A stretch of 64,000 nucleotides of DNA from Geomonas limicola (GTDB lineage: Bacteria; Desulfobacterota; Desulfuromonadia; Geobacterales; Geobacteraceae): positions 682,001 through 746,000 of the forward strand of contig NZ_BLXZ01000002.1 in assembly GCF_014193675.1 (NCBI RefSeq), written 5' to 3'. Made by a program: the position numbers and the translations under genes. Positions 3,196 to 49,161 of the stretch are shown here, piece by piece (within the stretch, counting starts at the first letter, position 1; every line of letters begins with the position of its first letter). The notes beneath the pieces were generated by a model, which saw only the letters and a list, made by a program, of their open reading frames with translations, ran no database searches and was not told the DNA's origin.

Positions 3196-5025
<1,830 letters not shown>

Positions 5026-5049: not shown

Positions 5050-5057
5050 TGTCTGGT

Positions 5058-5136: not shown

Positions 5137-5175
5137 CGGCCTAAGGATGGATTCATCCCCTTAGGCCGTTTTTTT
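5137..5175 (+). terminator. intrinsic terminator just inside the element
   Basis: A perfect 10-bp stem CGGCCTAAGG (5137-5146) / CCTTAGGCCG (5159-5168) with a 12-base loop is followed by seven T (5169-5175). It points away from glmS into the element, so it can end glmS transcripts and protect the tns region from read-through; the native glmS terminator is now 43 kb away (48511-48541). The T run is also the left flank of the nested element at 5176-5566. Confidence 0.85.
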
Positions 5176-5566: not shown

Positions 5567-5993
5567 TTTTTTTTACCCCTCCGGACTGACCTCCAGATAG
5601 ACCTACCTTATCCTCAACCCATCTACCGCTGTCGGCAACAACCAGGATGGTGTGATTGCTCAGGCCTGGCCAAAATCAGAATTGTAACGAATTCATTCAC
5701 GGGCTCTGCAAAACCCCTTGTGGGCTAGCAAGATACATGAGCCGTTCGGCTGCCATAATACCAGATTTGGTTTTAACGTACTGATATAATTGAAAAAAAT
5801 ATTGCTTCTGGCTGGACTTTTGATTCCTTGCCGGTACCATTTTTGGGGTTTCCCGGAATAGGGGTATCTTGGAACCTTTACCAGGAGCCTATCCGCAACC
5901 AGCGTTTAACCCGGCAAGATTCGGCTAAGGTTTATCTTTTGGCAGACGAAAGGTGATTAGATGGCGGAGTAGATGGCCTACTGGAGGCTTTTA
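5567..5993 (+). other. tns leader region without a gene
   Basis: About 430 bases between the nested element and tnsA with no credible open frame. It holds an extended -10-like element TGATATAAT (5782-5790) without a good -35, about 200 bases before tnsA, the best promoter candidate for the tns operon. A TnsA ribosome site GGAGG lies at 5983-5987. No CRISPR repeat and no recognisable RNA was seen. Confidence 0.4.
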
Positions 5994-6794: not shown

Positions 6795-6803
6795 AGGATG
6801 TCC

Positions 6804-8999: not shown

Positions 9000-9011
9000 G
9001 GAGAGGTGACG

Positions 9012-10715
9012 ATGAATGACAACGGCAGGGCGCACGGCTTCGGCTTCGGTCGGAAAGTTGAGGCACAATACACTCCGAGTTCGGACCCGATGTACCGGCA
9101 CAATTGCTATATAGAGGCACTGCCTCCTCCCCTCGAAACTGAAGAAGTCATCAAAAAAATGCAAAGGTTTCCAGGGTACGACGATAGCGAACGCCGTCTT
9201 CCACCGTTGGAACGCATCTATGCAGTCCAGAAGCTGAGTAATTGTATTGTTCCGCTACCGGACTATATAGAAATTGAAAAAAAGTTTTCGAGAATGCTTC
9301 TCAATGGGTACTTTGCGCGGAACCCACTGTCTGCCGAGTGGGTGAAGCAAATGCAGTCTGCCTTTCCCGGTATTGGCGAAGACGCTCTTGTGAGATCAAA
9401 CGCTGCGGGGTTTGCCATTTACGGGACTAGCGGTGTAGGGAAAACCACCGTAATAGAGAGCATTTTGTCCTTATACCCCCAAGTCATAATCCACACGCAG
9501 TACAACGGGAATCCATTTGATCAACAACAAATAGTCTGGTTAAAGCTCGATTGTCCATTCGACGGCTCTCCGCGCGGGCTTTGTATAAACTTTTTTCAGG
9601 GAATCGATAGGGTCTTGGGAACAAGGTATACTGATAAGCTCCTGAGCAAGCGGGTCACTGCTGACTTATTACTCCCCAAAATGGCTGAGGTAGCTGGAGA
9701 GTGTGGTTTGGGAGTGTTGGTCTTGGACGAGGTCCAGCGGCTGAAGGGGGCTGGGGAAAAACTCTTGAGCTTCTTTGTCCAATTGACAAACGTGATTGGC
9801 GTTCCTGTCCTGATGTCTGGAACCTACAAAGCGATGAGCATGTTTAAAGATGAGGCCGCTGCGGCGAGGCGGGTAGCTGGGCAAGGCGATGTCGTAATGG
9901 ACAATTTCGCCGACGATGAAGTTTGGCGGCATTTATTGAAAAAGCTGTGGCGGTACCAGTACACGGATATACCCACCCCTCTTTCAGACAAACTGATCAA
10001 CGCTTTCCACGAACAATCTCAGGGCATTACAGATATTGCGGTTAAGTTGTATATGTTCGCACAGTGGCAGGTGATAGGCACCGGCGATGAGAAGATCACG
10101 CCAAAGCTGGTGGAGGTCGTTGCCAAAGAAAACCTGCATGCTATGGGACCGATTCTTCGCGCCCTGCGCACTCATGATTTCGAGGCCTTAAGTAAAATAG
10201 AAGATATACGGTCCCCGTGGGACATGGATCTCGTCCTTAAAAATGCCTGCCGACAAGCTCATCTCAGCGGGGCCATGGCAACTATCCGCAATGAAACGCT
10301 CGCGGAAAATTCTGATGCCGAGGTTGGGTCGCTACCTCATGAGAAGCTAGCCTTACAGCTGGTTCAGGCGGGATTTGATGGCGATATTGCGAGAATTGCC
10401 GCACGAAAGGCTTGTGATCGCTTTGCAGCACAGACTGACATGAAACGTGCGAGCGTGGAGGCTTTCCGACTGGCCCAAGAGGCGGATGACCTAAAGAAGG
10501 AAGCCCGGATTGCTCAAGAAATGAAAAAACCGGCCGGTAGGAAGAAAGCCCCCGTGGTTTCCCTTAGTGGAGACCTCCGTGAGATCGTAAAACATGCGGA
10601 GAAAGCAACCACTCCATACGAAGCGCTAAAAAATGCAGGCGTCATAAAATCTCCCTACGAGTTCTTCTCCAAAGGAGCAAACAATGATTCCGTTCTTTCC
10701 CAGGCCGCTTCCTGA
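9012..10715 (+). CDS. tnsC: TnsC AAA+ regulator ATPase
   Basis: 567 aa. In Tn7-type systems TnsC links the target-binding protein to TnsAB and controls target immunity. Walker A is GTSGVGKTT (about 137-145), Walker B is LVLDEVQRL (about 234-242), and a sensor-like PVLMSGTYKA follows. ATG 9012 fits the AAGGAGAGG ribosome site better than the GTG six bases upstream. The last 32 bases overlap the start of tnsD, so these two are translationally coupled. The C-terminal ~120 residues are helical and lysine/alanine rich, the expected TnsA/TnsB contact zone. Confidence 0.92.
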   Translation: MNDNGRAHGFGFGRKVEAQYTPSSDPMYRHNCYIEALPPPLETEEVIKKMQRFPGYDDSERRLPPLERIYAVQKLSNCIVPLPDYIEIEKKFSRMLLNGYFARNPLSAEWVKQMQSAFPGIGEDALVRSNAAGFAIYGTSGVGKTTVIESILSLYPQVIIHTQYNGNPFDQQQIVWLKLDCPFDGSPRGLCINFFQGIDRVLGTRYTDKLLSKRVTADLLLPKMAEVAGECGLGVLVLDEVQRLKGAGEKLLSFFVQLTNVIGVPVLMSGTYKAMSMFKDEAAAARRVAGQGDVVMDNFADDEVWRHLLKKLWRYQYTDIPTPLSDKLINAFHEQSQGITDIAVKLYMFAQWQVIGTGDEKITPKLVEVVAKENLHAMGPILRALRTHDFEALSKIEDIRSPWDMDLVLKNACRQAHLSGAMATIRNETLAENSDAEVGSLPHEKLALQLVQAGFDGDIARIAARKACDRFAAQTDMKRASVEAFRLAQEADDLKKEARIAQEMKKPAGRKKAPVVSLSGDLREIVKHAEKATTPYEALKNAGVIKSPYEFFSKGANNDSVLSQAAS

Positions 10716-12540
10716 CGAATTGCTTTATGGAATCTGCGCGAGGTACCACCAAAAAAGTCGAAACGTGAGCATCAAGTCGACGGTTCAGGACTTATTCGGA
10801 TCTACATCCGCTAGGGCTGTCCTCGACCTTCCCAATGGCATCGCAATTTTGAGTGGGCAGCTTCACGTGAAGACGCTGAATACCCCTGAACGGTTAATAG
10901 AAAGGCACACCCTGTTACCGTTATACAAACCTTTTCTGCCTCCAGAGCGCTATTTGAAGATTTTGGAATGGATGAAGGGCGCAGAAAACGGCCGAGGAAT
11001 TCATCAAGCTATCGGAGCCATGGCTAGTGGCATACCGCTTCTTCGGCTGCTGCGGTGGTGCCCTCAATGTCTCCTTGAGGACAGTGAGAAGTGGGGAGTG
11101 CCTTACTGGCACCGAAGTCATCAGGTGATGGCAGTTTCCACCTGCCACCTGCATGGAGTTCCCCTTTGTGAGCAGAGGCCTTATGCGTTGGTAGAGCTGA
11201 ACCAGCATTTCTTCCAGAGCCCTCCATCGCCATCAGTTTCCTCGATTAGGGAGGGTGCGGGACGCGCGGGAGGAACGCCGCACCAGTTCCGGCTGGCACA
11301 GGATGTTGCCTGGCTGCTCAGCAATCCGCATCTGCCGATACTCGGACTGGATAGCCTCCATGATCGGTACCTGTATTTTCTAAGGGAGAGAGGCTTAGCG
11401 TCATATTGGGGACGGGTGGCCCAGCAGGAGCTACGAGAGGCATTCGTTGCTTTCTATGGAGCCGACTTTCTCAGGGAGGCATTTTCCGATTTGGACCTTG
11501 GCAGTGAACAGACCTGGCTTAGTTCCCTAGTCCGAAAGCCTCGGAGGGCAGCGCATCCAGTGCGGCATCTGCTTCTCCTAAACTTCCTGGGCTTGCATCC
11601 TGAGGCATTCTTTGCCGGTGCCACGATCATAAAAGAAAAGCGACCTTTTGGCCACGGACCATGGCCTTGCCTCAACCCTGCCGCGGGTCACTATCTCCAA
11701 CCCGTTGTTTGCGAGTGTAAAATAACAAAACATACCGAGAATGCCCTTCCAATCGGAACCTTCAAGTGCACATGCGGATTCGCTTACGCACGGACAGGGC
11801 CCGATTTGAAGAAGGAGGATAGGTTTTCTCTGGGACGAATTATCGCCTTCGGACCGGTTTGGGAGGCCGAGCTGCAACGACTTGTTACTGAAGGGGAGAC
11901 TAGCTTGAGAGGGATCGCACGGCGGCTTGGTGTCGATCCAGCTACTGTCAAAAAGCACCTCTATATGAAGCGCGTCACGGCGAAAGAACTCACCAACCTC
12001 CCCGACGATCTCGTAAAGGCACGCCGACAGCGATGGCTCGATCTCTGTCGCCATCACCCCGAAGCAGGAAAAAAATTTATCCGGGCACTTGCTCCTGCTG
12101 ATTATACCTGGCTGTATCGCCACGATAGAGAATGGCTTTTAGGTCTCCCCTGTATACCCCCACAAAAATTTCGAAGAGGAAGAGTAGATTGGGAAAATAG
12201 GGACGAGTGTATCTCGTCAGGGATTACGTCAGCTGTTAATCGGCTTAAGGAGCAGGAAGGAAGGCCGGTTCGCATCACCCTCTCGGCTGTCGGAAAAAAG
12301 CTTGGGATTCTGGCAATTGTCCAGAAGAAGCTGGAGAATCTGCCAAGGACGAGAGCTGCTCTTGGCAGCACCATCGAGACCGATATCGACTACGGGATCA
12401 GGCGAGTGCAATATGCGGTGCAGGCGATTAAACAAAGGGGGGACTCACTGGAGACCTGGAGGGTCGCCAGGAAGGCAGGACTCGGCTCGAATTACGATCA
12501 GGCAGTCGCACATGAAATAACCCGTTTGATAGAGGCCTAG
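10684..12540 (+). CDS. tnsD: TnsD/TniQ target-selection protein (likely glmS-specific)
   Basis: 618 aa, longer than Tn7 TnsD (508 aa). The TniQ domain starts at once (FPRPLPDELLYGICARYH) and has its zinc ligands in CPQC (about 126-129), YWHRSHQ and CHLHG. A second Cys cluster (CECK near 343, CTCGF near 363) and a helix-turn-helix-like segment SLRGIARRLGVDPATVKKHL (about 408-428) follow, as in TnsD proteins that read DNA. Since the element sits at the canonical glmS position, this is the most likely attTn7-binding protein (inference). A ribosome site AAGGAG lies inside the end of tnsC. Confidence 0.88.
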   Translation: MIPFFPRPLPDELLYGICARYHQKSRNVSIKSTVQDLFGSTSARAVLDLPNGIAILSGQLHVKTLNTPERLIERHTLLPLYKPFLPPERYLKILEWMKGAENGRGIHQAIGAMASGIPLLRLLRWCPQCLLEDSEKWGVPYWHRSHQVMAVSTCHLHGVPLCEQRPYALVELNQHFFQSPPSPSVSSIREGAGRAGGTPHQFRLAQDVAWLLSNPHLPILGLDSLHDRYLYFLRERGLASYWGRVAQQELREAFVAFYGADFLREAFSDLDLGSEQTWLSSLVRKPRRAAHPVRHLLLLNFLGLHPEAFFAGATIIKEKRPFGHGPWPCLNPAAGHYLQPVVCECKITKHTENALPIGTFKCTCGFAYARTGPDLKKEDRFSLGRIIAFGPVWEAELQRLVTEGETSLRGIARRLGVDPATVKKHLYMKRVTAKELTNLPDDLVKARRQRWLDLCRHHPEAGKKFIRALAPADYTWLYRHDREWLLGLPCIPPQKFRRGRVDWENRDECISSGITSAVNRLKEQEGRPVRITLSAVGKKLGILAIVQKKLENLPRTRAALGSTIETDIDYGIRRVQYAVQAIKQRGDSLETWRVARKAGLGSNYDQAVAHEITRLIEA

Positions 12541-12692
12541 CAGGTCGTTGAAAAACAAATTTCTAGCCCCCAGAGTCGCAAAAAAGGGGTCCTGTTACCA
12601 CTCGTCAGCAATAGAACGCCTGTTAGAGCCCATTTTCGAGAGCCGAGCTTCTCGGCAGTACCACCTCTCAGGTGAATTTCAACGGCCTGCTA
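12538..12692. repeat. 155-bp inverted-repeat unit between tnsD and tniQ2
   Basis: TAGCAGGTCGTTGAAA (12538-12553) is mirrored by TTTCAACGGCCTGCTA (12677-12692) with one mismatch in 16. The left copy includes the tnsD stop codon. TTGAAA-type termini are common in insertion sequences, so this may be a tiny non-autonomous element or a hairpin-forming spacer between two tniQ genes. No target duplication was identified. Confidence 0.5.
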
Positions 12693-12739
12693 GAGGCTTC
12701 CCAGGTAGAGACATAGCTTTCCGAAGTCGCGGAGCAACA

Positions 12740-13924
12740 ATGTTACCGTTTTTCCCACATCCATATCCAAACGAGTTGCTCTATAGCACGATTGCCAGGT
12801 ACCACTTCCGGAGCAAAAATCCAAGCTATAGAGATACGGCCCAGGAATTACTGGGCTCTCCAACTGCGAGCGTTATCGCGCTGCTACCCAGCAACACGGT
12901 ATTTCTGCACTCACAACTGCACCCGAATACCCTGCTGACCCCTGACAAACTGATATTCGAACACACTCTCTTTCCCCTGTACAAGCCTTTCATAGAGAAA
13001 GATCGAGCAGATTCGGCAATCCGGTATATGAAAAGGTCCTCCGTCGGCGATGGCAGGCCACTTACGGGCCTTCTGAGATATTCCCTTAGTGCCGGCCGCT
13101 CATTTAAGTACTGCCCCCAGTGCTTTGCCTCCGACACTAAAACTCACGGCGAGGCTTACTGGCATAGGGACCATCAGCACTTCGGTGTCCTTACCTGTTA
13201 TAAGCATAATTCCCTACTCGTTGACACGGGATTCCCCTTGGCTCCCACTCAGCAAGAACGCATTTTGTATAGGCTTGATAAAGAGTACCCACGCCAAACT
13301 GCCCCACCCAACTTTACTCGCAAGGACATGAGGCATTTGGAGTTTATTGCGAAGTCGGTTCACTGGCTTATGCACAATCCTGCCCCCGATAATGCAATGG
13401 AAATCTTACACAGAAGGTATGAGCAGCTTCTTGTGGAAAGGAAGTTCGCGACTCAATCCGGATTGGTAGCCCACCGTCCCATCAGCAAGGCCTTTGACTC
13501 CTATTATGGCGAAAGGATTTTAGTCGCGATGTCAAGTTCCCTTCCGATGGCAACAGACAAAAACTGGCTGGTGAGGTTGTTTAGGAGACGGGAAAAAGTG
13601 ACGGATCCCATCAGGCACATTCTGGCGATCCGATTCTTGCGTGAAGACATCCCGGGTATCTTTTCCGAGACCAAAGAACAAAATCTGCCTATACCTAGGC
13701 CGCCCCAGGGCGAAGATCACCTAAGACAGAGCCCTAAAGATGAAAACGCCCTTTCGTGCAAGTTCTGTCCCTTTACCATACCTAAGATATTCCGGAACAA
13801 GGCGGGAAAGGTAATAGGTCCGGATAGCGCACACCTTCGAATGTCAGAACATGTGGAAAAGAACCATCCTGAGGAGTACGAAAAACGGAGAAGATTTTGG
13901 GAAGGCTCCCCAGAGCCCTTATAG
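12740..13924 (+). CDS. tniQ: second TniQ-family protein with C-terminal Cys/His finger
   Basis: 394 aa from ATG 12740, which has GGAG five bases before it; the frame is open back to 12548 but that part overlaps the inverted-repeat unit. The first residues (MLPFFPHPYPNELLYSTIARYH) closely match the start of tnsD, so the two are paralogues. TniQ zinc ligands recur in CPQC (about 125), YWHRDHQ and CYKHN. The C-terminus differs: instead of the second cluster and HTH of TnsD it has CKFC (about 340-343) and HLRMSEHVEKNH, resembling a C2H2-type finger. It may direct transposition to a second class of target or assist TnsD; no CRISPR genes accompany it. Confidence 0.85.
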   Translation: MLPFFPHPYPNELLYSTIARYHFRSKNPSYRDTAQELLGSPTASVIALLPSNTVFLHSQLHPNTLLTPDKLIFEHTLFPLYKPFIEKDRADSAIRYMKRSSVGDGRPLTGLLRYSLSAGRSFKYCPQCFASDTKTHGEAYWHRDHQHFGVLTCYKHNSLLVDTGFPLAPTQQERILYRLDKEYPRQTAPPNFTRKDMRHLEFIAKSVHWLMHNPAPDNAMEILHRRYEQLLVERKFATQSGLVAHRPISKAFDSYYGERILVAMSSSLPMATDKNWLVRLFRRREKVTDPIRHILAIRFLREDIPGIFSETKEQNLPIPRPPQGEDHLRQSPKDENALSCKFCPFTIPKIFRNKAGKVIGPDSAHLRMSEHVEKNHPEEYEKRRRFWEGSPEPL

Positions 13925-31953: not shown

Positions 31954-33096
31954 ATGAAAACAGCCGTATCGAAGAAGTTAAGCAGCTTGCCAAGCAGGTA
32001 TCGCATAGCACTCCTCATGGGATTATTGGTTGTTATTGCCTTCGGCGTTGTTTTTGGAAAAGAACAGAAACCACTGCCTGCTGATGCGGCCCATCCTCGT
32101 ATGGTCCGCGCCTTTACGGTGGGGTCTGCCGGGAGTTACTCGATGGAATATACCGGAGTGATTCACGCTCGCACGGAAAGCGATCTCGGTTTTCGCGTGC
32201 CCGGCAAGATTATAGAGAAACTCGTCAAGGCAGGAGAACACGTCAAACGCGGACAGGCTCTGATGCAACTTGATCCAACAGACCTGCGTCTGGCCACAAC
32301 AGCGGCCAGAGAGGCGGTCGAAGCGGCCCGGGCACAGAACAAACGCGCCCTCGCCGATGAACTGCGCCAACGTGGGCTCGTCGCTATGAAAGCGGTATCG
32401 GTACAGGAATACGAACAGGCCAAATCAGCAGCAGACGCAACAACCGCACAACTAAATTCGGCTATTGCGTACTCGAAACAACTGGAAAACCAGGCTAGCT
32501 ACGCCGTTCTCCGGGCCGATGGAGATGGCATCGTCACAGAGACCCTTGCCGATGTCGGACAGGTCGTGGGTGCGGGCACTGTGGTGGTTCGCCTCGCTCA
32601 GGACGGTGCACGCGAAGCAGTGGTCAACCTTCCCGAGGGGAATGAGAAACTTGCAGGATCTATGGCCATCGCCTCCCTTTATGCCGATCCGGCTCAGAGC
32701 TTCACTGCTAGGCTGCGCGAATTATCCGCTATGGCCGACCCTCTCACCCGAACCTACCAGGCACGCTACACACTGGGTGGTGTCGGGGCAAGCGCTCCTC
32801 TCGGTGCCACAGTGACGATTCACCTGGATGGAGAGATCGCCCGTGGCACGATGCAGCAGTTCACGATTCCGGTAGGCGCACTGTATGACGGCGGCACCGG
32901 CACGAGTGTGTGGGTGATTAATTCCAATACCTCGACATTATCGCGACGACCGGTCGAGGTGGCGAAGCTCGGCAGTGAGACAGCGCTGGTGAGCAAGGGC
33001 CTCAGGCCGGGAGAGCAAATTCTCGCGCTCGGTGCTCACCTCGTCAAGGAAGGGGAAAAAGTAACTATCCTCTCCGTCCCGGCGAAGGAGCAGTAA
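31954..33096 (+). CDS. RND efflux periplasmic adaptor subunit (membrane-fusion protein)
   Basis: 380 aa. An N-terminal membrane segment (IALLMGLLVVIAFGVVF, about 20-36) anchors it in the inner membrane; GVIHARTESDLGFRVPGKI and VKRGQALMQLDPTDL are the biotinyl-lipoyl-like half-motifs, separated by a coiled hairpin (about 105-175), then the beta-barrel YADPAQSFTARLRELSAMAD. It links the pump at 33099 to the outer-membrane channel at 36176. Only two bases separate its stop from the pump gene, so these are one operon under operator copy 3. Confidence 0.93.
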   Translation: MKTAVSKKLSSLPSRYRIALLMGLLVVIAFGVVFGKEQKPLPADAAHPRMVRAFTVGSAGSYSMEYTGVIHARTESDLGFRVPGKIIEKLVKAGEHVKRGQALMQLDPTDLRLATTAAREAVEAARAQNKRALADELRQRGLVAMKAVSVQEYEQAKSAADATTAQLNSAIAYSKQLENQASYAVLRADGDGIVTETLADVGQVVGAGTVVVRLAQDGAREAVVNLPEGNEKLAGSMAIASLYADPAQSFTARLRELSAMADPLTRTYQARYTLGGVGASAPLGATVTIHLDGEIARGTMQQFTIPVGALYDGGTGTSVWVINSNTSTLSRRPVEVAKLGSETALVSKGLRPGEQILALGAHLVKEGEKVTILSVPAKEQ

Positions 33097-33098
33097 AC

Positions 33099-36000
33099 AT
33101 GACCCACTTCAATCTATCCGCGTTCGCAGTCCGCGAACGCGCCATTACCCTGTTTTTGATTATTGCCGTCATGGCGGCCGGTGTATATGCCTTCCTGCAC
33201 CTGGGACGTGCGGAAGACCCCAAGTTCACAGTGAAAACCATGACGGTAACAGCCCTGTGGCCTGGGGCCACCGCACGGGAAATGCAGGAGCAGGTGGCAG
33301 ATCGGCTGGAGAAACGTCTCCAGGAGCTTGAGTATTACGACCGGGTGGAAACCGTCGCTTCCCCCGGAATGATCTTGATGAAACTCTATCTGAAAGACAC
33401 TACGGCTCCCAAGGACGTTCCGGAGGAATTCTACCAGGCACGAAAAAAGCTGGGTGACGAAAAGATCCGTCTGCCGCAGGGCGTGATCGGCCCGATTCTG
33501 AACGACGAGTTTTCCGATGTGTATTTCTCCATGTACTCGCTGTCGGCAAAGGGGCTGCCCCACCGCCAGCTCGTGCTTGAGGCGGAAGCGCTTCGCCAGC
33601 GTTTTTCCCGGATAGACGGCGTGGAGAAAGTCACCATTCTTGGCGAGCAGGATCCGAAAATCTATGTCGAGATTTCCTATAAACGTCTGGCAACGCTTGG
33701 CGTAAAGGCGACCGATTTGTTTCGTGCCTTGCAAACCCAAAACGATGTGACTCCTTCAGGCTTTGTGGATACGGCTGGACCGCGTGTCTATCTGCGGCTC
33801 GACGGCGCCCTCAACGGAGTGGAAGCCGTCAAGGCGATTCCGGTGGCAAGCGGCGGAAAACTGCTGAAAATCGGCGATGTGGCCGAGGTGATCCGAGGGT
33901 ATGAAGATCCGGCTTCAAAGCAGATACGTAACCAGGGAGAGCCTTCGCTCGTCCTGGCCCTGGTGATGAAAAAAGGCTTCAACGGTCTAACTCTGGGCAA
34001 CCTGCTGAAAGCCGAAGAGACGGCAATTCGCAAGGAACTGCCCGTTGGTTTGACGCTGTCAAAGGTATCGGATCAGTCCCACGTCATTTCCGAGGCCATT
34101 GGCGAATTCATGCTCAAATTCGTGGTTGCCCTTGCCGTTGTCATTGTGGTGAGCCTGGCAACGATGGGGTTCCGGGTCGGAATCGTCGTGGCTGCCGCTG
34201 TGCCGCTTACCCTTGCCGCCGTGTTCGTCATCATGCTGATCACTGGCAGGGATTTTGACCGAATCACCCTGGGGGCGTTGATCATTTCGCTGGGACTGCT
34301 GGTGGACGACGCCATCATCGCCATTGAGATGATGGTGGTCAAAATGGAACAGGACTGGGATCGAATCGAGGCAGCGACCTTTGCCTGGATATCGACGGCC
34401 GGCCCCATGCTTTCCGGCACATTGGTTACCATAGTCGGCTTCCTGCCGGTCGGCTTTGCCAAATCAACGGCAGGCGAATATGCGGGCAACATATTCTGGG
34501 TAGTGGCATTCGCATTGATCACCTCGTGGTTTGTTGCCGTCATCTTTACCCCCTATCTGGGCGTCAAGCTCCTGCCCAATATCAAGCCGATTGCGGGAGG
34601 TCATGAAGCCATTTATAACACGCCGAACTACCGGCGGCTTCGCCATATGGTGCGGCTGGTGGTCGATCATAAATGGATCGCTGCCGGGGTTACCGTTGTG
34701 CTTTTTATGTTGTCCGTGGTCGGCATGGGGTTTGTTGAAAAACAGTTTTTCCCCAACTCGGATCGCCCGGAATTGACGGTCGACGTCAACCTTCCTCCGG
34801 GCAGCGCCTTTGCCGCCACCGATAAAACCGCGAAAAACATCGAAAAAGCGATTATGGCCGAGCCGGAGGCCAGCCTGGTCACCAGTTATATCGGCCAGGG
34901 TATGCCACGCTTCATATTGCCGACGAATCCGGAACTGCCCAACCCGGCCTATGCCCAGATCGTGGTGCTGACCCAAAGCTCGGCAGCGCGTGATGCGCTC
35001 AAGAAAAAGCTGCGCACGCGCGTTGACCAGGGTGCGTTTCCGGAAGCGCGGGTGAGAGTGAAACAGTTCGTGTTCGGCCCGCCCGTGCCTTTTCCGGTGC
35101 TCTTCCGCATCATGGGGCCGGACCCGAACGAACTGCGCCGGATTGCTCGTGAGGCAAAAGCTATCATGATGGGAAATCCGAACGTGCGTGATGTACATCT
35201 GGATTGGGGCGAGTTGACTCCGAGCCAGCGTCTGGTGCTTGACCAGGATCGTCTGCGCCTGCTCGGCCTTACGCCGCAGGAAACCGGGCTTCAATTACAG
35301 GCTATTTTAAACGGTGCGCCCACCACGCAGATGCGGGACGGTATCCGCTCGGTCGATGTCGTAGTTCGCGCTCCCGGTTCCGAACGCCACAGCCTGGAAA
35401 ACCTGGCCAATGTTTCCCTGACAACCAGAGACGGGCGCGCGATCCCGTTGTCGCAACTGGCACATTTTGAATCCCGTATGGAAGATCCGCTACTGAAACG
35501 TTACAACCGCGAACCGTATATCTCTGTTCAGGCGGATGCTGTCGACGGAGTTCAACCACCGGATGTAACGGCCCAGATTCTTCCCAAGCTGGCAAAGCTG
35601 AAGGCATCCCTTCCCGTGGGATACCGCATAGAAACAGGTGGCTCCGTGGAAGAGAGCAAGAAGGCCGATACGGCGCTTGGCAAGCTTTTCCCTCTAATGG
35701 TGCTGCTTATGCTGGTAATCATCATGATTCAGGTGAGGTCGTTTGCGGCTATGTTTCTGGTGTTTGCCACGGCTCCGCTTGGCCTGGTGGGGGCTGTGCC
35801 GACCATGCTCCTATTCCATCAGCCGTTCGGCTTCAATGCAATTCTGGGATTGATCGGGCTGGCGGGCATCATTATGCGCAACACGCTGATTCTCGTCGAT
35901 CAGATCAAGCAAGACCAGAAAGCGGGACTGGGCGATTACGATGCCATCGTGGAATCAACCGTACGCCGGGCTCGACCGGTCGTTCTGACCGCCGTGGCTG

Positions 36001-36194
36001 CCATGCTTGCCTTTATTCCGCTGACGTTTTCCAGCTTCTGGGGATCAATGGCCTATGTGCTGATCGGCGGAGTCGGGGTCGGTACGATTCTGACCCTGCT
36101 CTTCCTGCCGGCGCTCTACGCAATCTGTTTCAAAGTAAAGCATCCCCAAACCGGCGCAGAGGAAGGAGGACGTGCATGTTCCGTAGAACTGTAA
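33099..36194 (+). CDS. RND efflux pump, inner-membrane permease
   Basis: 1031 aa, the standard length of an HAE1/AcrB-type pump with 12 membrane helices and two large periplasmic loops. ITLGALIISLGLLVDDAIIAIEMM is the conserved helix-4 segment with the proton-relay acidic pair (DD); GLIGLAGIIMRNTLILVDQI is the matching helix-10 region. N-terminal AFAVRERAITLFLIIAVMAAG is closer to the MexK/cation-independent organic-compound subgroup than to AcrB itself. Proton-driven export of hydrophobic compounds; substrate unknown. The end overlaps the outer-membrane gene by 19 bases. Confidence 0.94.
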   Translation: MTHFNLSAFAVRERAITLFLIIAVMAAGVYAFLHLGRAEDPKFTVKTMTVTALWPGATAREMQEQVADRLEKRLQELEYYDRVETVASPGMILMKLYLKDTTAPKDVPEEFYQARKKLGDEKIRLPQGVIGPILNDEFSDVYFSMYSLSAKGLPHRQLVLEAEALRQRFSRIDGVEKVTILGEQDPKIYVEISYKRLATLGVKATDLFRALQTQNDVTPSGFVDTAGPRVYLRLDGALNGVEAVKAIPVASGGKLLKIGDVAEVIRGYEDPASKQIRNQGEPSLVLALVMKKGFNGLTLGNLLKAEETAIRKELPVGLTLSKVSDQSHVISEAIGEFMLKFVVALAVVIVVSLATMGFRVGIVVAAAVPLTLAAVFVIMLITGRDFDRITLGALIISLGLLVDDAIIAIEMMVVKMEQDWDRIEAATFAWISTAGPMLSGTLVTIVGFLPVGFAKSTAGEYAGNIFWVVAFALITSWFVAVIFTPYLGVKLLPNIKPIAGGHEAIYNTPNYRRLRHMVRLVVDHKWIAAGVTVVLFMLSVVGMGFVEKQFFPNSDRPELTVDVNLPPGSAFAATDKTAKNIEKAIMAEPEASLVTSYIGQGMPRFILPTNPELPNPAYAQIVVLTQSSAARDALKKKLRTRVDQGAFPEARVRVKQFVFGPPVPFPVLFRIMGPDPNELRRIAREAKAIMMGNPNVRDVHLDWGELTPSQRLVLDQDRLRLLGLTPQETGLQLQAILNGAPTTQMRDGIRSVDVVVRAPGSERHSLENLANVSLTTRDGRAIPLSQLAHFESRMEDPLLKRYNREPYISVQADAVDGVQPPDVTAQILPKLAKLKASLPVGYRIETGGSVEESKKADTALGKLFPLMVLLMLVIIMIQVRSFAAMFLVFATAPLGLVGAVPTMLLFHQPFGFNAILGLIGLAGIIMRNTLILVDQIKQDQKAGLGDYDAIVESTVRRARPVVLTAVAAMLAFIPLTFSSFWGSMAYVLIGGVGVGTILTLLFLPALYAICFKVKHPQTGAEEGGRACSVEL

Positions 36195-37588
36195 TCCTGA
36201 GCATCGTCATCGTCTGCCTGGCCGGTTGCAGCAGCATGGCACCCAACTACAGACGGCCCGAAGCGCCGGTGGCAGCCGCCTGGCCCACCGGCCCGGCCTA
36301 CAAGAACAACACCTCGGTGTCCGGCAAAGCGGTTGCCACAGATCTGAAGTGGCGCAATTTTTTCGTCGGGCCGCAACTGCAAAAGCTGATCGGTCTCGCC
36401 TTGGCCAATAACCGTGACCTCCGCGTGGCTGCGCTGAACGTGGAAAAATCGCGAGCCCAGTTCCGGATACAGAGGGCCGATATGTTGCCGACTGTCGCTG
36501 CCGCCGGCAGTGGCGCGGTGCAGCGGCTCCCGGCGGCTGTATCCCCCAGCGGGCAAGACATGATTGCCCGTAACTACAACCTGAGCCTTGGGTTGAGCAG
36601 CTACGAGATCGATCTGTTCGGCCGCGTCCAGAGTCTGAAAGATCAGGCCCTGGAGCAGTATCTCGCCACCGAACAGGCGCGCAAGAGCGTTCAGATCAGC
36701 CTGGTAGCCGAGGTGGCCAACAACTATCTTGCCCTGGCCGCCGATAGGGAACGGCTGAAACTGGCTCTTGACACCCTTGAAAGTCAACAGGCTTCCTACC
36801 GGCTGGTCCAGAGCCGCTTTACCGCCGGAGCCTCGTCGGAACTGGACCTGCGGCAGGCCCAGACCGGCGTTGAAACAGCCAGGGTGGATGTAGCACGTTA
36901 CACCACCCTGGTAGCCCAGGAGGAAAACTTGCTGACCCTGGTTGTTGGCGATCAGGTTCCGACTGAGCTCTTGCCCACCGGATTCGATGCTGTGGGAACT
37001 CTGCGGGAACTGGCGGCCGGAGTGCCGTCCGAGGTGCTCCAGCGTCGTCCGGATGTCATGCAGGCCGAACTGCTTTTGAAGGCTGCCAACGCCAACATCG
37101 GAGCGGCCCGGGCCGCCTTCTTTCCGCGTATCACCCTGAATACCAGCATTGGAACATCCAGCGATCAACTGACCGGACTGTTCTCGCCCGGCTCCCTTGC
37201 CTGGGGATTTGCCCCGCAGTTCACCCTGCCGATTTTCGATTACGGCAGGAACACGGCTGGCCTGACAGCGGCCGAGCTCGACCGGGATATTTATCTGACC
37301 CGTTATGAAAAGGTGATCCAGAACGCCTTTCGGGAAGTAGCCGACGCTCTGGCCCAAAACGGGACGGTGGGAGAACAGCTACAGGCGCAACAGTCGCTCA
37401 CCGAAGCCACCTCCGAGAGCTACCGGCTGTCACGGGCACGCTATGACAGCGGCTACAGCAGCTATCTGAACGTACTGGATTCGCAGCGCTCGCTGTACGG
37501 CGCCCAGCTGGGGCTGATCAGCGTCGTCTTTGCACGGCTCGCCAATCAGATCACGCTCTACAAAGTGCTGGGTGGAGGAAGCGAGTAG
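36176..37588 (+). CDS. outer-membrane efflux lipoprotein (NodT/OprM family)
   Basis: 470 aa. A lipoprotein signal with lipobox LAGC (Cys at about 18) starts the protein, followed by the OprM-type mature start YRRPEAPVAAAWP and two outer_membrane_efflux (TolC-like) repeats, about 60-250 and 270-460, with VPSEVLQRRPDVMQAE at the hinge and SYLNVLDSQRSLYGAQL near the end. It completes the tripartite pump. An AGGAGG ribosome site lies inside the end of the pump gene. Confidence 0.94.
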   Translation: MFRRTVILSIVIVCLAGCSSMAPNYRRPEAPVAAAWPTGPAYKNNTSVSGKAVATDLKWRNFFVGPQLQKLIGLALANNRDLRVAALNVEKSRAQFRIQRADMLPTVAAAGSGAVQRLPAAVSPSGQDMIARNYNLSLGLSSYEIDLFGRVQSLKDQALEQYLATEQARKSVQISLVAEVANNYLALAADRERLKLALDTLESQQASYRLVQSRFTAGASSELDLRQAQTGVETARVDVARYTTLVAQEENLLTLVVGDQVPTELLPTGFDAVGTLRELAAGVPSEVLQRRPDVMQAELLLKAANANIGAARAAFFPRITLNTSIGTSSDQLTGLFSPGSLAWGFAPQFTLPIFDYGRNTAGLTAAELDRDIYLTRYEKVIQNAFREVADALAQNGTVGEQLQAQQSLTEATSESYRLSRARYDSGYSSYLNVLDSQRSLYGAQLGLISVVFARLANQITLYKVLGGGSE

Positions 37589-39267: not shown

Positions 39268-39413
39268 TCCACGGACAACTTTAAGTCGGGCATCCAGCAT
39301 CGGCGATTGCTCGCGGTGTACGCGGCAGTTCAATCAGACAAATAAACTTTCAACCTCGAATGGACGGTGGAATTTGCACACGTTCCAAACACACCAAAAA
39401 GAAAGGACACATC

Positions 39414-41947: not shown

Positions 41948-42010
41948 CAAGGGGGCTCGTCCCCACAGGCGACGTAACCAAAAAAAGGTAATACAGAGGG
42001 ATACTTCATT

Positions 42011-45000
42011 TTGAGTCAATCTCCTGAACTTGCGGGCGGCAGTGGCTTCACTTTTGAGGATAGGGTTTCCGCGAATTATCTCGCTGCCCTCCTCCAACAG
42101 GGGTTCGCGCCCGGTATTGCTGACCGAATCGTCTGCCGGGTCGCACTTCAACAGCGTGATGTTGGAGAGCCTCTTGACGATGTCATTGTTGATTTTAGCT
42201 CGACTCAGGGCGACCTCGCCCGCCTCAGTCTTCAGGTGAAGCGCGCGCTCACGATCAGTGCAGCCATAACCAACACAAATTTCCATGAAATCATCCGCGA
42301 TTGCTGGCACACCCTCACCAAGGATAACTTCCGCAAGGGTGTTGATCGGTTCGGGGCAGCTGTTGGCGAGGTCGCAACAGATAAGGTGCGAGACCTTAGG
42401 ACCCTCTGCGAACTCGCCAGATCAAGCACCACCTTAGCTGAATTCGAGGCACGATTTTCCCCAACCGGCAATGCCAGCGCCGCAGTTCGTCACATCAAGA
42501 ATGATATTTCATCATTGATCCAGAAAGCCAAGGGATCAGCCTGTTCTGGCCTCCAGTTGATGGATTTTCTTGCCCACTTTGTTCTAATAGAATTCGACTT
42601 TCTTCACGAGGGGCAGATAGGCCTCCCACTCGCACTCAACACTCTAAGGTCATGTCTGCTGACTAGCGATCCCTCGCACCCCTCAGCTTTATGGGACCGA
42701 CTCACGGCTCTTGTGCGTGAAGGTGCAGGGCGTTCAGCTGTTTTCGATCGCCCAAGTCTTGTTCGCATTCTTTCTCACTCATTCCGAGTCGCCGTGGGGC
42801 CCTCATTCCGAAAGGACTTGGAGCGCATTGAGGTATTCACGAAACAGTGGCTAGCTGACATCGAAGATGATGTTGGTGGCACTCGCCTAGAACGCCACGA
42901 GCTCAAACTTGAAACCGCCTCGAAGATGGATTCCTGTAGATGGGTACAGATCCGCGGGTTGCCCGGCAGTGGCAAATCTGTTCTTCTCCGGCGCTGTGTT
43001 GAGGCCGATCTGGCCCGAGGTCCTGTTCTTTTCTTGAAATCCGGTCGGCTAGACGGCACTGGATGGGCAAGCTTCGCTACAGCAAATGGACTTTCGAACG
43101 CTGCGCTACGAGACCTCCTTGTAGAAATAGCTGCTGCCGGCTCAAGGACGATATATATCGACGGCGTCGACAGAGTCGAAAAGCCTCATCAGGCTGTCGT
43201 TCTTGATATCGTTCGGACGGTAATAACTGACCCGCTTTTGGACAATATGCGGATTGTTGTTACCTTGCGTGACACCGGCATCGAACCACTACGAAATTGG
43301 CTGGGTAACGTGCTCGCTTCTGTCAGTATCGAGACTGTTGAGGTTGGACCCCTTAATGACGAGGAAAGTGAGATACTGGCGAAGGAACAGCCGCATTTGC
43401 GTCGCTTGCTGTTTGCAGCCAAACAGGTGCAGGAGATAGTTCGGCGTCCCTTCTTTGCCAAGATCCTAAACCAGAATTTTGGTTCACATGCTGGTGATGA
43501 GGGATTCCTACCGCAGTCAGAAGTAGACCTCCTCGAGAATTGGTGGAACAGAGGCGGTTATGACTCCACTGGGCAGTCCGCGTTGGAACGCCAGCGCTCC
43601 ATCATCGAGTTGAGCTCAAAACGTGCCAGGCACTTCGAACGAGAACTCACCATCCGCGAACTGTCCACACCGACCGTAGCGGTGATTGACCAGCTTATCA
43701 GAGATGGCATTCTTCAATATGTGAGGGGGGGACATAGCCTTCGTTTTTCCCACGACATATTTTTTGAGTGGGCCTATTTCCATGCCCTATCAGATGCGGA
43801 AGACTGGTTGAGTGAGGTCCGTGCTTGCGGCGAACCGCCGGCCATTGCTAGATCCGTCGAGTTGCTTTCGCAATGGCAATTCAACCAGGGCCCGATCTGG
43901 ACCGAGACGCTCGGTAAGTTCGACCAAGCTCTAATGCGGTCGCAATGGACGCGATCCTGGCTATTAGCCCCGCTTGCCGCACCTAGCTTCAGAACTGGTG
44001 AAATATTTTACTGGCCTGCGCTGGAGGCGAACGATCACTACTATTTAAAGAAACTGTTGGTCTGGTTCCAAGCTGAGCGGACTATGCCGAATCCTGTGAT
44101 CTTAAAGGGTGACCTTCCTCAGGATGAACGTATCCGAGTGGCCGATTTCCTTGGCTGGCCTTCCGATTTTGAGTCATGGTCTAGGTTCATCTTCTTTCTT
44201 CTGACGCGCATCTCTGCGATTCCAATTACCCTCTACCCAGCTGTGTTGTCAATCTTTGAAGTTTGGCAAAATGCGCTTGCTGGGTCAAAGAATCCGATCT
44301 CCTCTGCACTTCTTGACCAAGTCTCCGCTTGGCTTGCAGAGGTTTCAGAGCAGAGTGCCTCTCGCCGCCCCTCTCCCATTCCCTCTAGGTGGGCGCCTCT
44401 CGGCCCTCAGTTAGGTGATTTTACGAGCTCATTGCTTAGACTGATTCTTCGGTCCGCTGAGGTGCGGCCGGATCTCACAGAGGCATACCTCAACCGCCTG
44501 ATTAATATGATCGATTTGCGGCGTGAAAGGTTTGCAGAGGTGGTGACATTTTCACCGATTCTTGCGCGCTCCCATCCGATGTTGCTTGTTGAGTTGACTC
44601 TCAAACATATGCTGCGCGAGCTTCCTGAGGAGCAGAAGGCGCGAGAACTGAAGGAATACGAACAGGCTATCGAGCAACGAAACCGCGCTCAAGAGAAACC
44701 TCCGGGGGAGCGTACCCGTGAGGATGATCTGGCTTTAGATGGGTTATTCATCCCATTTGGAGTGGATTCATTCAATCGGTTTGAGTGGGAGAATCTGGCG
44801 ATAGAAGACGATATCGGAGCATATTTCCCACCGTCACCACTTCGTGAGCCTTTCCACTCTCTGTTTACCTTAGCACCCGAGGAGGGCCTCCGGCTTCTTG
44901 CCGGTCTATGCAACCATGCCATGACCGCTTGGCAACAATTGTACAAGCTTGCATCTGAAGAAGCTACTCCTGCTCCAATTGAGATCCAGTTCCCCTGGGG

Positions 45001-47398
45001 CAAACAGCTTTTCTGGGGGAACAATCGCGAATACCTCTGGTGCCGCGGGATGTGGGCTCCGAAACCAATTGCCAGTGCTTTGCTCTCGCTAGAAGAATGG
45101 GCTTTTAGCGAGGTTGAACGTGGTCGCGAAATTGATGAGCTAATCCGTCAGATGCTGGCCGGAAATGAGTGCATCGCTGCTCTGGGGGCAGCTGCTGCTA
45201 TAGCCATAGAATCTGAAGCAATGACCGAAGGGATATTTTCACTTGTTACATCTCAGCGTCTGCTATCAGCAGACCATGACCGTTGGCAGCACGACCTGAC
45301 GGATAAAATGTCTGGACTCATAGGGTTTACTAACCCAGGAGATTGGCCTCATATTGAGGCAGTGAAGAGGATCAATGACCGTCAGTTTCGCCAGCGGGAA
45401 CTGAACTCGGTTATATCGAGATTTTTCCTTCTCGGGGGTGATGAGTTCTCAACTCGTATCAAAGCCGCCATTTCTGCTTTGGCGAAGAAACCAGCCTTTG
45501 AGTTTGAGGAACAACGGCAGGATTCTGAGGCGGCGAAGGACCTTACCTGCCAGGCAGAGGAGTTGGCTGAGCTAATAGAAATACAAAATTATCAACGTGT
45601 AGAAACCAACGACCCTGAAAAGGTTGGCGTTGTGCATGTTAGCCCTAGTCGTTTGACGCCTGAACGTATTGCGCAAGCGGGGGAGGCTTACACCAAACTT
45701 CGTATAAACAGCCTTTGGGTTTGGGGCTCCAAATACTTCGAATCCGGTGCGTTGGCCGAAAGCTTCAGTCTTCAAGATGCCGTTGACTTTGCTAGGGATG
45801 TTGACACTCCAGAAATATTTGATGCAACTGAAAATGAAGCTGGGGACATTGATATGCACCGCGGTGCAGTTGCCGTCGTTGCCGCTGTTGCACTTAATTG
45901 CCCAAATGCTTTGACAAAGGCAGATCTCGCGTGGGCTCGTAGGACTGTCAATCGCGCGTTTACAGCGCCGGAGGTTCGGAGCATTTTCTGGTCCGTTCGC
46001 TCGGTCATTCCGTGGCACCATCTCATCTTTGTAGCAAGAGGGCTCGCGGCGGACATCGATAATGGTACTGCGGAGCCAGACTCCCCACGTAAATTACTTA
46101 CCATAGTCGCTCATCCGCTGGAGGTAGTCTCTCTCGCAGCTTTGGAGGCTGCGCTGGGACTTCATGCTCGGGATCAAAAGATTGGCTGGTCTGCTTTGTA
46201 CCTTGCCTTATCCCTATGTGTCCTGCCACCACGGTCCGAACCACGGGACATCTCCGAAGGTATTCACTCACCGGACAGAGTTCATTCGGCAGTTGAAGAA
46301 GCAATTGGCTTCTACGAGGAACCCGGAGACTGGATTGCTCTCCCTCTGCCCGCTCCCGCATGGATCAGGGTCCAGGGTAGGGATAAGGCGCACGAAACCA
46401 AGGATCGGAGCGAAGGGTCATTAAAACCGTCTGGTTTACCCGAAATTACCGAGGAACGATGGGCCGCTTCTCCAACACGTTGGTACGATCATTATGCGGC
46501 TGAGGTGATCAAGCAAATTCCAGTGAAAAGGTACCTTTCAGGCCCTGGTGGTTCCAAGCTCCTCGACTTCCTTGCTGGAGGACTAGAATGGACGATCTCT
46601 AAACTGTCTCCTCCCTCACAAAAAGGAAGGCGTGAGGACAGCGGAGACAAACTCTATGAATGGAAAAACGAATTGGGGAGAATTATCGGTAAGGCGGCAG
46701 GGCTGTGCCCTCTGCTTGAGGTCAAGGCCCGGTTTCTTGACCCCATTTTTGCCTTAAACGGTGACAAGTGTTGGGAGCTTCTCGCACCACTTGTTGACCT
46801 TTACATCCGCATGTACTTCTATGACGCGGAGGAGGTGCCACCAGACGGGGTAGAGCTGTTGATGCAGTGCCTCGACCGGTCCTTGGAAGCTCCCTCATTT
46901 CTGCCAGGAGACTATCGTAGTGGTGACTTCCATGGTTTTCATTTGCCTCGTCTGGTCAAGTCGTTAATGTTTGTGAGCGTGGAGCGGATCGCTCCAGGTG
47001 CAGCCCGCTATGCGAATGGGGACTGGAAGGAAATTGATCGAATTTTACCGGTCGTGGATCGTTACATTCGAGCTGTTGGCTGGGTTTCCACCATAATGTA
47101 TCATTTCCTCACGCTCTGTGAGCGATCGAAGGAGGTCTATCCCGCTGCCCTATTTGCAGATCAGGTTCTGCACGTCATGGATGGTGGTGGACCGTCCTTG
47201 GTAGGCTGGCACAACTCGGTCCTCCCTGCACGGATTGCTTCCTTGGTTCAGTACCTCTCGGACCGAGAGACTCCAATGCCATTAGCCTTAGGTCAACAAT
47301 TTCTCCGTATCCTAGACCTCCTCGTGGACATGGGCGACCGAAGGAGTGCTGCCCTCCAATGCAGTGAAACCTTCAGGCAGATCCAGATCGAAGCATAA
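42011..47398 (+). CDS. 1795-aa nuclease-like/P-loop NTPase protein (Avs/STAND-like)
   Basis: TTG start at 42011 with AGAGGG about ten bases before it. The N-terminal ~150 residues look like a PD-(D/E)XK nuclease of the Cap4/DUF4297 kind: E in GFTFEDRVSANYLAALL, D in LDDVIVDF and QVK in LSLQVKRAL. Walker A is GLPGSGKSVLLRR (about 316-328) and Walker B is TIYIDGVDRVE (about 379-389), followed by VTLRDTG and a winged-helix-like stretch. The remaining ~1300 residues are helical without a repeat I can name, the place where Avs proteins carry their phage-protein sensor. This architecture suggests an abortive-infection type defence protein (inference). Confidence 0.72.
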   Translation: MSQSPELAGGSGFTFEDRVSANYLAALLQQGFAPGIADRIVCRVALQQRDVGEPLDDVIVDFSSTQGDLARLSLQVKRALTISAAITNTNFHEIIRDCWHTLTKDNFRKGVDRFGAAVGEVATDKVRDLRTLCELARSSTTLAEFEARFSPTGNASAAVRHIKNDISSLIQKAKGSACSGLQLMDFLAHFVLIEFDFLHEGQIGLPLALNTLRSCLLTSDPSHPSALWDRLTALVREGAGRSAVFDRPSLVRILSHSFRVAVGPSFRKDLERIEVFTKQWLADIEDDVGGTRLERHELKLETASKMDSCRWVQIRGLPGSGKSVLLRRCVEADLARGPVLFLKSGRLDGTGWASFATANGLSNAALRDLLVEIAAAGSRTIYIDGVDRVEKPHQAVVLDIVRTVITDPLLDNMRIVVTLRDTGIEPLRNWLGNVLASVSIETVEVGPLNDEESEILAKEQPHLRRLLFAAKQVQEIVRRPFFAKILNQNFGSHAGDEGFLPQSEVDLLENWWNRGGYDSTGQSALERQRSIIELSSKRARHFERELTIRELSTPTVAVIDQLIRDGILQYVRGGHSLRFSHDIFFEWAYFHALSDAEDWLSEVRACGEPPAIARSVELLSQWQFNQGPIWTETLGKFDQALMRSQWTRSWLLAPLAAPSFRTGEIFYWPALEANDHYYLKKLLVWFQAERTMPNPVILKGDLPQDERIRVADFLGWPSDFESWSRFIFFLLTRISAIPITLYPAVLSIFEVWQNALAGSKNPISSALLDQVSAWLAEVSEQSASRRPSPIPSRWAPLGPQLGDFTSSLLRLILRSAEVRPDLTEAYLNRLINMIDLRRERFAEVVTFSPILARSHPMLLVELTLKHMLRELPEEQKARELKEYEQAIEQRNRAQEKPPGERTREDDLALDGLFIPFGVDSFNRFEWENLAIEDDIGAYFPPSPLREPFHSLFTLAPEEGLRLLAGLCNHAMTAWQQLYKLASEEATPAPIEIQFPWGKQLFWGNNREYLWCRGMWAPKPIASALLSLEEWAFSEVERGREIDELIRQMLAGNECIAALGAAAAIAIESEAMTEGIFSLVTSQRLLSADHDRWQHDLTDKMSGLIGFTNPGDWPHIEAVKRINDRQFRQRELNSVISRFFLLGGDEFSTRIKAAISALAKKPAFEFEEQRQDSEAAKDLTCQAEELAELIEIQNYQRVETNDPEKVGVVHVSPSRLTPERIAQAGEAYTKLRINSLWVWGSKYFESGALAESFSLQDAVDFARDVDTPEIFDATENEAGDIDMHRGAVAVVAAVALNCPNALTKADLAWARRTVNRAFTAPEVRSIFWSVRSVIPWHHLIFVARGLAADIDNGTAEPDSPRKLLTIVAHPLEVVSLAALEAALGLHARDQKIGWSALYLALSLCVLPPRSEPRDISEGIHSPDRVHSAVEEAIGFYEEPGDWIALPLPAPAWIRVQGRDKAHETKDRSEGSLKPSGLPEITEERWAASPTRWYDHYAAEVIKQIPVKRYLSGPGGSKLLDFLAGGLEWTISKLSPPSQKGRREDSGDKLYEWKNELGRIIGKAAGLCPLLEVKARFLDPIFALNGDKCWELLAPLVDLYIRMYFYDAEEVPPDGVELLMQCLDRSLEAPSFLPGDYRSGDFHGFHLPRLVKSLMFVSVERIAPGAARYANGDWKEIDRILPVVDRYIRAVGWVSTIMYHFLTLCERSKEVYPAALFADQVLHVMDGGGPSLVGWHNSVLPARIASLVQYLSDRETPMPLALGQQFLRILDLLVDMGDRRSAALQCSETFRQIQIEA

Positions 47399-47500
47399 AC
47401 TGAATGGCAGAAAATGGTGCTGCCGGTGATAAGGAAATGCAATGGTGGCTCGAGCCATAGAGAAACACGGGTGCTGAGCGAACCGCTTCAGGCGTGACAG

Positions 47501-47674
47501 TAGTTGGATACTTTATTCTTTGCAATGCCTTGAAAAAATCAAATTACTGGCGCCGGATTGTTGATTATAAGCTGGTCAACGAGTGAAATTGCACGACTTA
47601 ACGACATTTTACTATAGATTGGTTCTCTCTTGAATATAATAAAGTCAATAACTGTTAAATAAACTTCCCAACTA
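47501..47674. repeat. internal TnsB-like sites, possible remnant transposon ends
   Basis: TAGTTGGATACTTTATTCTT at 47501-47520 has the orientation of the distal-end sites. TTAAATAAACTTCCCAACTA at 47655-47674 has the opposite, glmS-proximal orientation and is directly preceded by a weaker copy at 47635-47654 (14 of 20 positions), giving the 20-bp tandem period of the proximal array. The rest of the 47399-47780 gap has no gene. This looks like an eroded junction between two Tn7-like ends. Confidence 0.6.
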
Positions 47675-47780
47675 TCACTGCGGTATTCCGGAGTGGATTC
47701 AATTTTCTTAGGCCCATGTTGCTACAGGTGGCACACGAGCTGTTTGAAGCCCCCGCCGACGATTGGGGCAGGAATGAACC

Positions 47781-48335
47781 ATGGATACGACAGGAAACCT
47801 TTTATCACTGTTGGAACCAGGTGGCGTATATCGGCGATCCGACCTTGCGAGGGCAGTCAAGGGTGTGGATCGTGAGTTGATCAAGTTGGTGAATGCCAAG
47901 CGCCCAGAAAAGGTTGGCCGAGGACTTTACCATTTTCCAAGGCACTCGCGCTTTGGGAGTCTCCCCCCTGATCCGGAGAAGTTGGTGAAGGCTTTCCTTC
48001 GAGACAACCACTTCTTGGTAATCTCGCCAAATGACTTTAACTGCCTCGGCGTCGGGACAACTCAACTCTACAATTGCTTGTGGGTTTACAACCGGAAGCG
48101 TAGTGGTAGCTTTGAGATAGGTGGCCAGGTGTTTGTGCTCTTCAGAAAGCGCCATTTCCCGGACAAGGCTAGTGTGGAATTCCTACTTGTCACGCTAATT
48201 GACAATTTGAACAACCTCGCAGAGAATAGAGAAGACGTTAGATCAAAGGCGCTCGCAAGACTACAAGAGGAAAGATTGGCACAGGTTGAGACGGCGTCGC
48301 GAGAACCTCTAGGTAACGTCCCCAAGTCGAACTGA
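47781..48335 (+). CDS. AbiEi-like antitoxin/transcription-regulator protein (DUF6088-type)
   Basis: 184 aa. The N-terminal winged-helix region (LEPGGVYRRSDLARAVKG, then KVGRGLYHFPR) and the following NHFLVISPNDFNCLGVGTTQLYN / FEIGGQVFVLFRKRHFP segments match AbiEi-like or DUF6088 proteins, the antitoxin side of type IV toxin-antitoxin pairs. No AbiEii-type nucleotidyltransferase is next to it, so it is an orphan. It sits between the internal TnsB-like sites and the distal end array, the last gene of the element. Confidence 0.72.
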   Translation: MDTTGNLLSLLEPGGVYRRSDLARAVKGVDRELIKLVNAKRPEKVGRGLYHFPRHSRFGSLPPDPEKLVKAFLRDNHFLVISPNDFNCLGVGTTQLYNCLWVYNRKRSGSFEIGGQVFVLFRKRHFPDKASVEFLLVTLIDNLNNLAENREDVRSKALARLQEERLAQVETASREPLGNVPKSN

Positions 48336-48363
48336 TTTGTCAGCAAGCTCAGTGGCAACGGTA

Positions 48364-48498
48364 TAGTTGGAAACTTTATTCTCTCTAATCTGTGGTGATG
48401 CGCAAATTCAGTAGGAAACATTATTTATTTTCGACCGAGGCCGAGTTTGCTTCAACTGCCTGAAATACAACGATAGCTTAGTTGGCAACTTTATTTTT
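48364..48498 (-). promoter_or_regulatory. TnsB-type binding sites, distal (L-like) end
   Basis: Three inverted copies of the ~20-bp site: 48364-48383 (TAGTTGGAAACTTTATTCTC), 48409-48428 (weaker) and the terminal 48479-48498 (TAGTTGGCAACTTTATTTTT). They are spread over ~135 bases, unlike the contiguous proximal array, which mirrors the loose left end and compact right end of Tn7. The element ends CCCAGACA at 48506. Confidence 0.82.
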
Positions 48499-48506
48499 CC
48501 CAGACA

Positions 48507-48511
48507 GCGAG
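48507..48511. repeat. target-site duplication GCGAG, distal copy
   Basis: Exact repeat of 5045-5049, directly after the distal terminus. Joining 5049 to 48512 restores the uninterrupted glmS downstream sequence with its terminator. Confidence 0.93.
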
Positions 48512-48544: not shown

Positions 48545-48985
48545 GATGCACGATTTGTTAAGAGCGATGTACAAGCTGTTGATCGCTATGCACGAGTTGT
48601 TGAGAGCGATGCACAAGCTGTTGATCGCGATGCACGAGTTTTCGAGAGCGATGTACAAGCCGTGGATCGTGATGCACGAGTTGTTGAGAGCGATGCACAA
48701 GCTGTTGATCGTGATGCACGGGTTTTCGAGAGCGATGCACAAGCCGTAGACCGCGATGCACGGGTTTTCGAGAGCGATGCACAAGCCGTAGATCGCGATG
48801 CATGAGTTTTCGAGAGCGATGTACACGCTGTTGATCGCGATGCACGAGTTGTGAAGAGCGATTTACAACTCGTAGACCGCGATGCACACGCTGTGAAGAG
48901 CGATGTACAACACGTAGACCGCGATGCACAAGCTGTGAAGAGCGATGTACAAGCTGTTGATCACGATGCACGAGTTGTGAAGATG
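48545..48985. repeat. minisatellite, 21 units of 21 bp in a 42-bp alternating pattern
   Basis: Units alternate between type A (GATGCACGAGTTGTTGAGAGC-like, 21 bases, here abbreviated) and type B (GATGTACAAGCTGTTGATCG-like). The 21-bp register is unbroken from 48545 to 48985; the last unit is partial. Because 21 is a multiple of three, several frames on both strands remain open as heptad-like peptides; no ribosome site or start supports any of them, so I treat it as non-coding. It lies directly behind the glmS terminator. Confidence 0.88.
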
Positions 48986-49161
48986 GGCTGACAATCGTCA
49001 GCGTCGGGTACCTTGGGCGGGGAAACGGCTGCCTTGACCAAAGCGGTCCTTTTTCTTATAGTGGGGCGGTAAAAAGGTCCGGGGTTGGCTATGAAAGTGC
49101 TTCCCGGCCCTGGTACCATGAGCAGGTTTTTCTATATTCTTTCGTCGACCCGGGAGTCGTT

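Follow-up and report, generated by a model that had tools for sequence, protein, structure and literature searches.

Worn internal end sites support a tandem origin for a Tn7-like element at the glmS site of Geomonas limicola

Positions 5050-48506 of the 64,000-nucleotide stretch of the Geomonas limicola genome analysed here (the window) hold a Tn7-like element at the glmS site, bounded like one clean insertion. Further TnsB-type sites lie inside it, and the order of their directions supports a tandem origin from two parts: element A, from 5050 to about 47520 (about 42 kb), with tnsABCD, and element B, from about 47630 to 48506 (under 1 kb), with one abiEi gene. The best explanation as a whole, and one that we consider likely, is that A and B stood in tandem, lost their inner ends and moved together.

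The glmS stop codon lies at 5025 and is followed, some 20 bases on, by GCGAG (5045-5049). Next comes the outer glmS-proximal end (5050-5138, plus strand), which by sequence and matrix scoring has the layout of Tn7R: a TGTCTGG terminus, then a gapless run of four 20-bp TnsB-type sites in the plus direction, starting at 5059, 5079, 5099 and 5119 (span 5059-5138). The outer distal end (48363-48506, minus strand) has the layout of Tn7L, with three spaced sites at 48363, 48408 and 48478 and the terminus CCAGACA, and is followed by a second GCGAG (48507-48511) and then the native glmS terminator. The outer termini, TGTCTGGT and TGTCTGGG, match each other, and the 5-bp duplication flanks both. Among the 141 genomes of the order that formed our comparison set, the four-site proximal layout recurs in G017 and G058, and the spacing of the distal sites (46/69) is near-identical in G017. 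The closest relative examined, G015 (glmS segment 93% identical), has an empty site, where a terminator of the type seen here directly trails glmS, along with 21-bp repeats broadly similar in kind to those flanking the element in the window. The position just after glmS, the duplication, the relative with an empty site, the TGT/ACA termini, the contiguous proximal and spaced distal sites, and the presence of TnsA, TnsB, TnsC and a TnsD/TniQ selector place the element among Tn7-like elements of the glmS type. Tn7 of E. coli likewise has tnsABCD, the glmS site, four contiguous R sites, three spaced L sites and a 5-bp duplication; the present element differs from it in a second TniQ/TnsD-like gene and in its cargo.

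A strong terminator hairpin lies just inside the proximal end (5139-5175), as one does in G123 and G017, and presumably stands in for the terminator native to glmS, now displaced to 48511. Farther in, before tnsA, a pair of 24-bp inverted repeats (5176-5566; 96% complementary, flanked by T runs) with 343 bp between them has the look of a small insertion; one of its arms occurs once more in the genome (G000:C5:37830). Downstream of the glmS terminator are 21/42-bp tandem repeats (48545-49000); a different 21-bp array occupies this place in G015.

The transposition genes all lie on the plus strand and their reading frames are open. They comprise tnsA (5973-6794; Pfam PF08722 and PF08721), tnsB (6798-8999), whose product shares 44-48% identity with the TnsB proteins of eight others among the 141 genomes, tnsC (9006-10715; AAA_22 and TniB matches), tnsD, a glmS-type target selector (10684-12540; TnsD PF15978 with E 4e-103, TniQ PF06527), and a gene for a second TniQ/TnsD-like protein (12548-13924; PF06527 and PF15978). 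No relatives of this TnsB were found in the viral contig collection. A second, distant tnsABCD set lies outside the window in the same genome (G000:C2:312421-314334, L026; TnsB 26-27% identical). Element A carries, amid many oxidoreductases, the genes of an RND efflux set (31954-37588; HlyD-type, AcrB-type and outer membrane proteins). Its last cargo gene (42011-47398, plus strand) encodes a 1795-aa NACHT protein that by profile matches is partly Avs4-like (NF041815 Avs4, E 2.7e-18, below the model cut-off; PADLOC Avs4, E 2e-11).

The sole cargo of element B is an abiEi-like gene (47781-48335, plus strand), the product of which matches the AbiEi antitoxin of AbiE type IV toxin-antitoxin systems (PADLOC PDLC02234, E 1e-59); plasmid-borne relatives carry the name DUF6088. 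No AbiEii toxin gene lies beside it, and there is no room for one, because the distal end begins 27 bp after abiEi. An abiEi paralogue occurs elsewhere in the genome (C4, 51%), with no end sites found near it. Our scans of the genome and viral contig collections returned no relatives of the gene.

We scored the DNA with a matrix built from the seven outer end sites, which themselves score 18.8 to 27.9 when left out one at a time. Two internal sites fall inside this range: a distal-type site at 47500-47519 (minus strand, 21.5) and a well-kept proximal-type site at 47656-47675 (plus strand, 22.5). The next best score in the window is 13.9, the maximum in 400 kb of host DNA (both strands, 799,240 positions) is 13.2, and none of 2 million positions of an AT-rich null reached 21.5. 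The 16-base core AATAAAGTTCCCAACT, allowing up to two mismatches, is matched at eight places across the 5.23 Mb of the genome; every one is within the element, and two are these internal sites. The reversed control pattern is matched once. A degenerate proximal-type site at 47636-47655 (plus strand) scores 10.5, a value reached by 87 per 2 million AT-rich positions and not significant alone; it lies exactly 20 bp before its neighbour and points the same way. This distance equals the period at the true proximal end, and the chance of such a placement is about 1e-4. In a phylum-wide search the double-site pattern was found in this genome only.

That all the internal sites are chance matches in AT-rich DNA is exceedingly improbable, given the confinement of the core matches to the element and the ceiling of 13.2 in host DNA; in its favour are the low score of the 47636 site and, elsewhere, isolated scores of up to about 17 bits against a broader matrix (G069). 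The first-pass annotation had placed a distal-type site at 47501-47520, which is present with its frame shifted by 1 bp, and two contiguous proximal-type sites at 47635-47674. For the latter, the 20-bp period and one strong site hold, the other site is weak, and the frame again differs by 1 bp. It had also proposed a matrix scan of all 20-mers, and the scores above show no comparable sites at random places. We do not claim a third pair of sites, at 39339-39358 (plus, 13.6) and 41993-42012 (minus, 13.9), which is near chance expectation: 13.6 is reached by about 13 per 2 million AT-rich positions, so that about half a match is expected in this element. These two sites lie just ahead of two cargo genes, in the order plus then minus, as in a small nested element.

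Sites at a left boundary point in the plus direction and those at a right boundary in the minus direction. Between the outer ends the internal sites run minus then plus, giving the order (+...-)(+...-) for the whole and therefore indicating elements side by side; a nested pair would read (+(+...-)-). Insertion of B into A thus conflicts with the direction of the sites unless an inversion is invoked, and is barely credible, although nested mobile elements are common in Tn7-like cargo (PMC8649781). The contiguous pair is of the proximal type and the single site is closest to 48363, the outer distal site that is its best match; A is therefore followed by B, facing the same way, with ends in the order R...L R...L, an arrangement that insertion at glmS under the direction of TnsD would produce. 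These comparisons support the reading of 47500-47519 as a remnant of the distal end of A. The proposal of the first-pass annotation that the element is a tandem or composite insertion is thus borne out by the order of directions, and by intact adjacent insertions in two relatives, G115 and G117.

G115 is a complete tandem pair, with two elements and three copies of one duplication, in an assembly that is fragmented and may mix strains. The joint itself lies on a single contig (C417), which reads tnsDCBA-R-AAACA|ATCGT|TGTCC-L'. The R end recurs with 100% identity over 124 bp on the contig that carries glmS (C186), preceded there by ACGAT, which is ATCGT on the opposite strand, and a third contig (C356) has an L end 94% identical, flanked by ATCGT. 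These segments are L119 5855-6087, L142 2025-2148 and L143 11275-11421. The pair resembles the present case in its glmS site, its TnsB family (44%) and its L-5bp-R joint, and differs in that this joint is intact, both ends are complete, the sites are near-identical and three duplication copies remain. In G117 a TAAAT-flanked element separates glmS from an older proximal-type end with two sites. As in the present case, a complete element abuts, downstream of glmS, an older end that has two 20-bp sites; in contrast to it, the G117 element is reversed, so that its distal end faces glmS, and behind the old end we saw no cargo resembling abiEi. After that old end (L114 3695-3800; G117 43695-43800) comes the apparent 3' end of a tRNA gene, which may stem from a further integrated element.

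In three congeners, two-site proximal-type arrays lie directly behind glmS, between its stop codon and a terminator, with no tns genes there (G006, L083 204-243; G018, L085 175-214; G016, L087 226-265). They may be remnants, perhaps kept for the terminator that now serves glmS or for R-end target immunity. One or more further arrays lie behind glmS in G069, G073 and G130, and several families of 20-bp site arrays stand in a row in G073 (L145 3660-4060) and G069 (L144 2330-2580), suggesting repeated waves of Tn7-like insertion. Together these cases indicate that stacked and worn ends are common at the glmS site in this order. The 56-kb sibling element of G017 has no strong internal sites.

The first-pass annotation had suggested looking for relatives that end near 47520 or begin near 47630, and we found none. 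By DNA, neither A alone nor B alone was found in the 141 genomes, nor did AbiEi protein searches of the genome or viral collections return such a form, which counts against a tandem, although single partners would support a tandem rather than define one. Searched against the 141 genomes, the DNA of 47400-48506 matched nothing beyond a piece of abiEi at 65% in G066 and 35 bp in G121; the latter match lies between unrelated genes and was taken as chance. Target immunity of Tn7 is also expected to act against adjacent insertion of elements that share TnsB sites (PMC11406308), yet G115 shows that it is possible. With its nearly identical ends, the pair in G115 is one that target immunity should have blocked.

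A third point against a tandem is the joint itself, where 116 bp (47520-47635) separate the sites in place of a clean L-5bp-R junction. One of three distal and two of four proximal sites are left, the terminal TGT/ACA is gone at both inner ends, and no complete inner ends with a clear 5-bp duplication between them are seen; we therefore claim an eroded tandem only. At 47576-47586 stands TCA-ACGAG-TGA, which shares 8 of 11 letters with the expected ACA-GCGAG-TGT, a likeness that carries no significance by itself (about 0.13, calculated by hand). When the layout of intact ends is fitted rigidly onto the joint, even the best registers are off by at least 3 bp. Beyond the sites, the flank at 47690-47728 (plus strand) aligns with 5145-5186, the stretch that adjoins the true proximal end on its inner side and holds the terminator hairpin, though its own hairpin is lost (alignment p 0.045, controls 1.4-2.4%); the resemblance of the flank after 47675 to that after 5138 is suggestive only (p about 0.02-0.05). 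Two near-perfect sites next to missing ones suggest deletion or replacement rather than slow decay.

The same joint might also arise in a single element if parts of its ends had been copied beside the distal end, by template switch or abortive transposition, with abiEi captured between them. Such copying would fit the incompleteness of the joint, the closeness of 47500 to 48363 and the weak likeness of the two proximal flanks. It would require two separate copies, one per end, in exact tandem order and directions, and relatives hold intact tandems, so that we regard it as unlikely. Alternatively, the internal sites could have been retained for function, as alternative ends or a regulatory cluster, with A, B and A+B each mobile. 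The survival of two sites that score like true ends although the rest of the joint is gone would agree with this, but the TGT/ACA termini are absent at both inner ends and one and two sites only are present, making retention for function very unlikely. The related prospect that TnsB still binds the inner ends and that these can pair with the outer ones, which would let a single transposase mobilise A, B or A+B, is one to which we give little credence; if it held, small defence cassettes would be shuffled between elements stacked at glmS.

The tandem reading allows us to hypothesise an order of events. Two Tn7-like elements of one family would have ended up adjacent in the same orientation: the small B, which has abiEi between a proximal end of two sites and a distal end of three, and the large A, in which tnsABCD and cargo lie between a proximal end of four sites and a distal end. 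Because TnsD-directed insertion always targets the same spot behind glmS, A as the newcomer would have landed between glmS and the older resident B, giving glmS-R...L-5bp-R...L. Most TnsB sites would then have been lost from the inner L and R ends, leaving one and two. TnsAB would pair the only complete ends, those of A proximally and B distally, and so move A+B jointly before the element reached this host; such fused mobility is plausible from the sequence. Wear is seen at the joint, whereas the outer ends and their duplication are intact; the joint is therefore probably older than the present insertion, and A and B would thus have arrived together. Equal GCGAG copies would also follow if A and B had inserted successively in this host, and successive insertion with a single deletion after arrival would give a similar joint.

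Tandem Tn7-like insertion is a kind of event already known, reportedly including a description by Peters et al. in 2014 of multiple ends from adjacent insertions. What is unusual here is that the joint is worn and that the second element is tiny, with an orphan abiEi as its sole cargo. Adjacent or internal Tn7-like insertions give multiple left and right ends (PMC8649781); the present element shares such several sets of ends, and is unlike those described in that its inner ends are worn and that B, its second element, spans less than 1 kb and carries one abiEi gene and no transposase.

The intact pair in G115, the element against an old end in G117 and the orphan ends beside glmS in three congeners offer a series from fresh to fused. 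These relatives also bear on how stacking evades target immunity when binding sites are common to both elements. A growth route for Tn7-like elements would follow, in which they stack at one attachment site, their inner ends wear and the pooled cargo passes to the outer ends.
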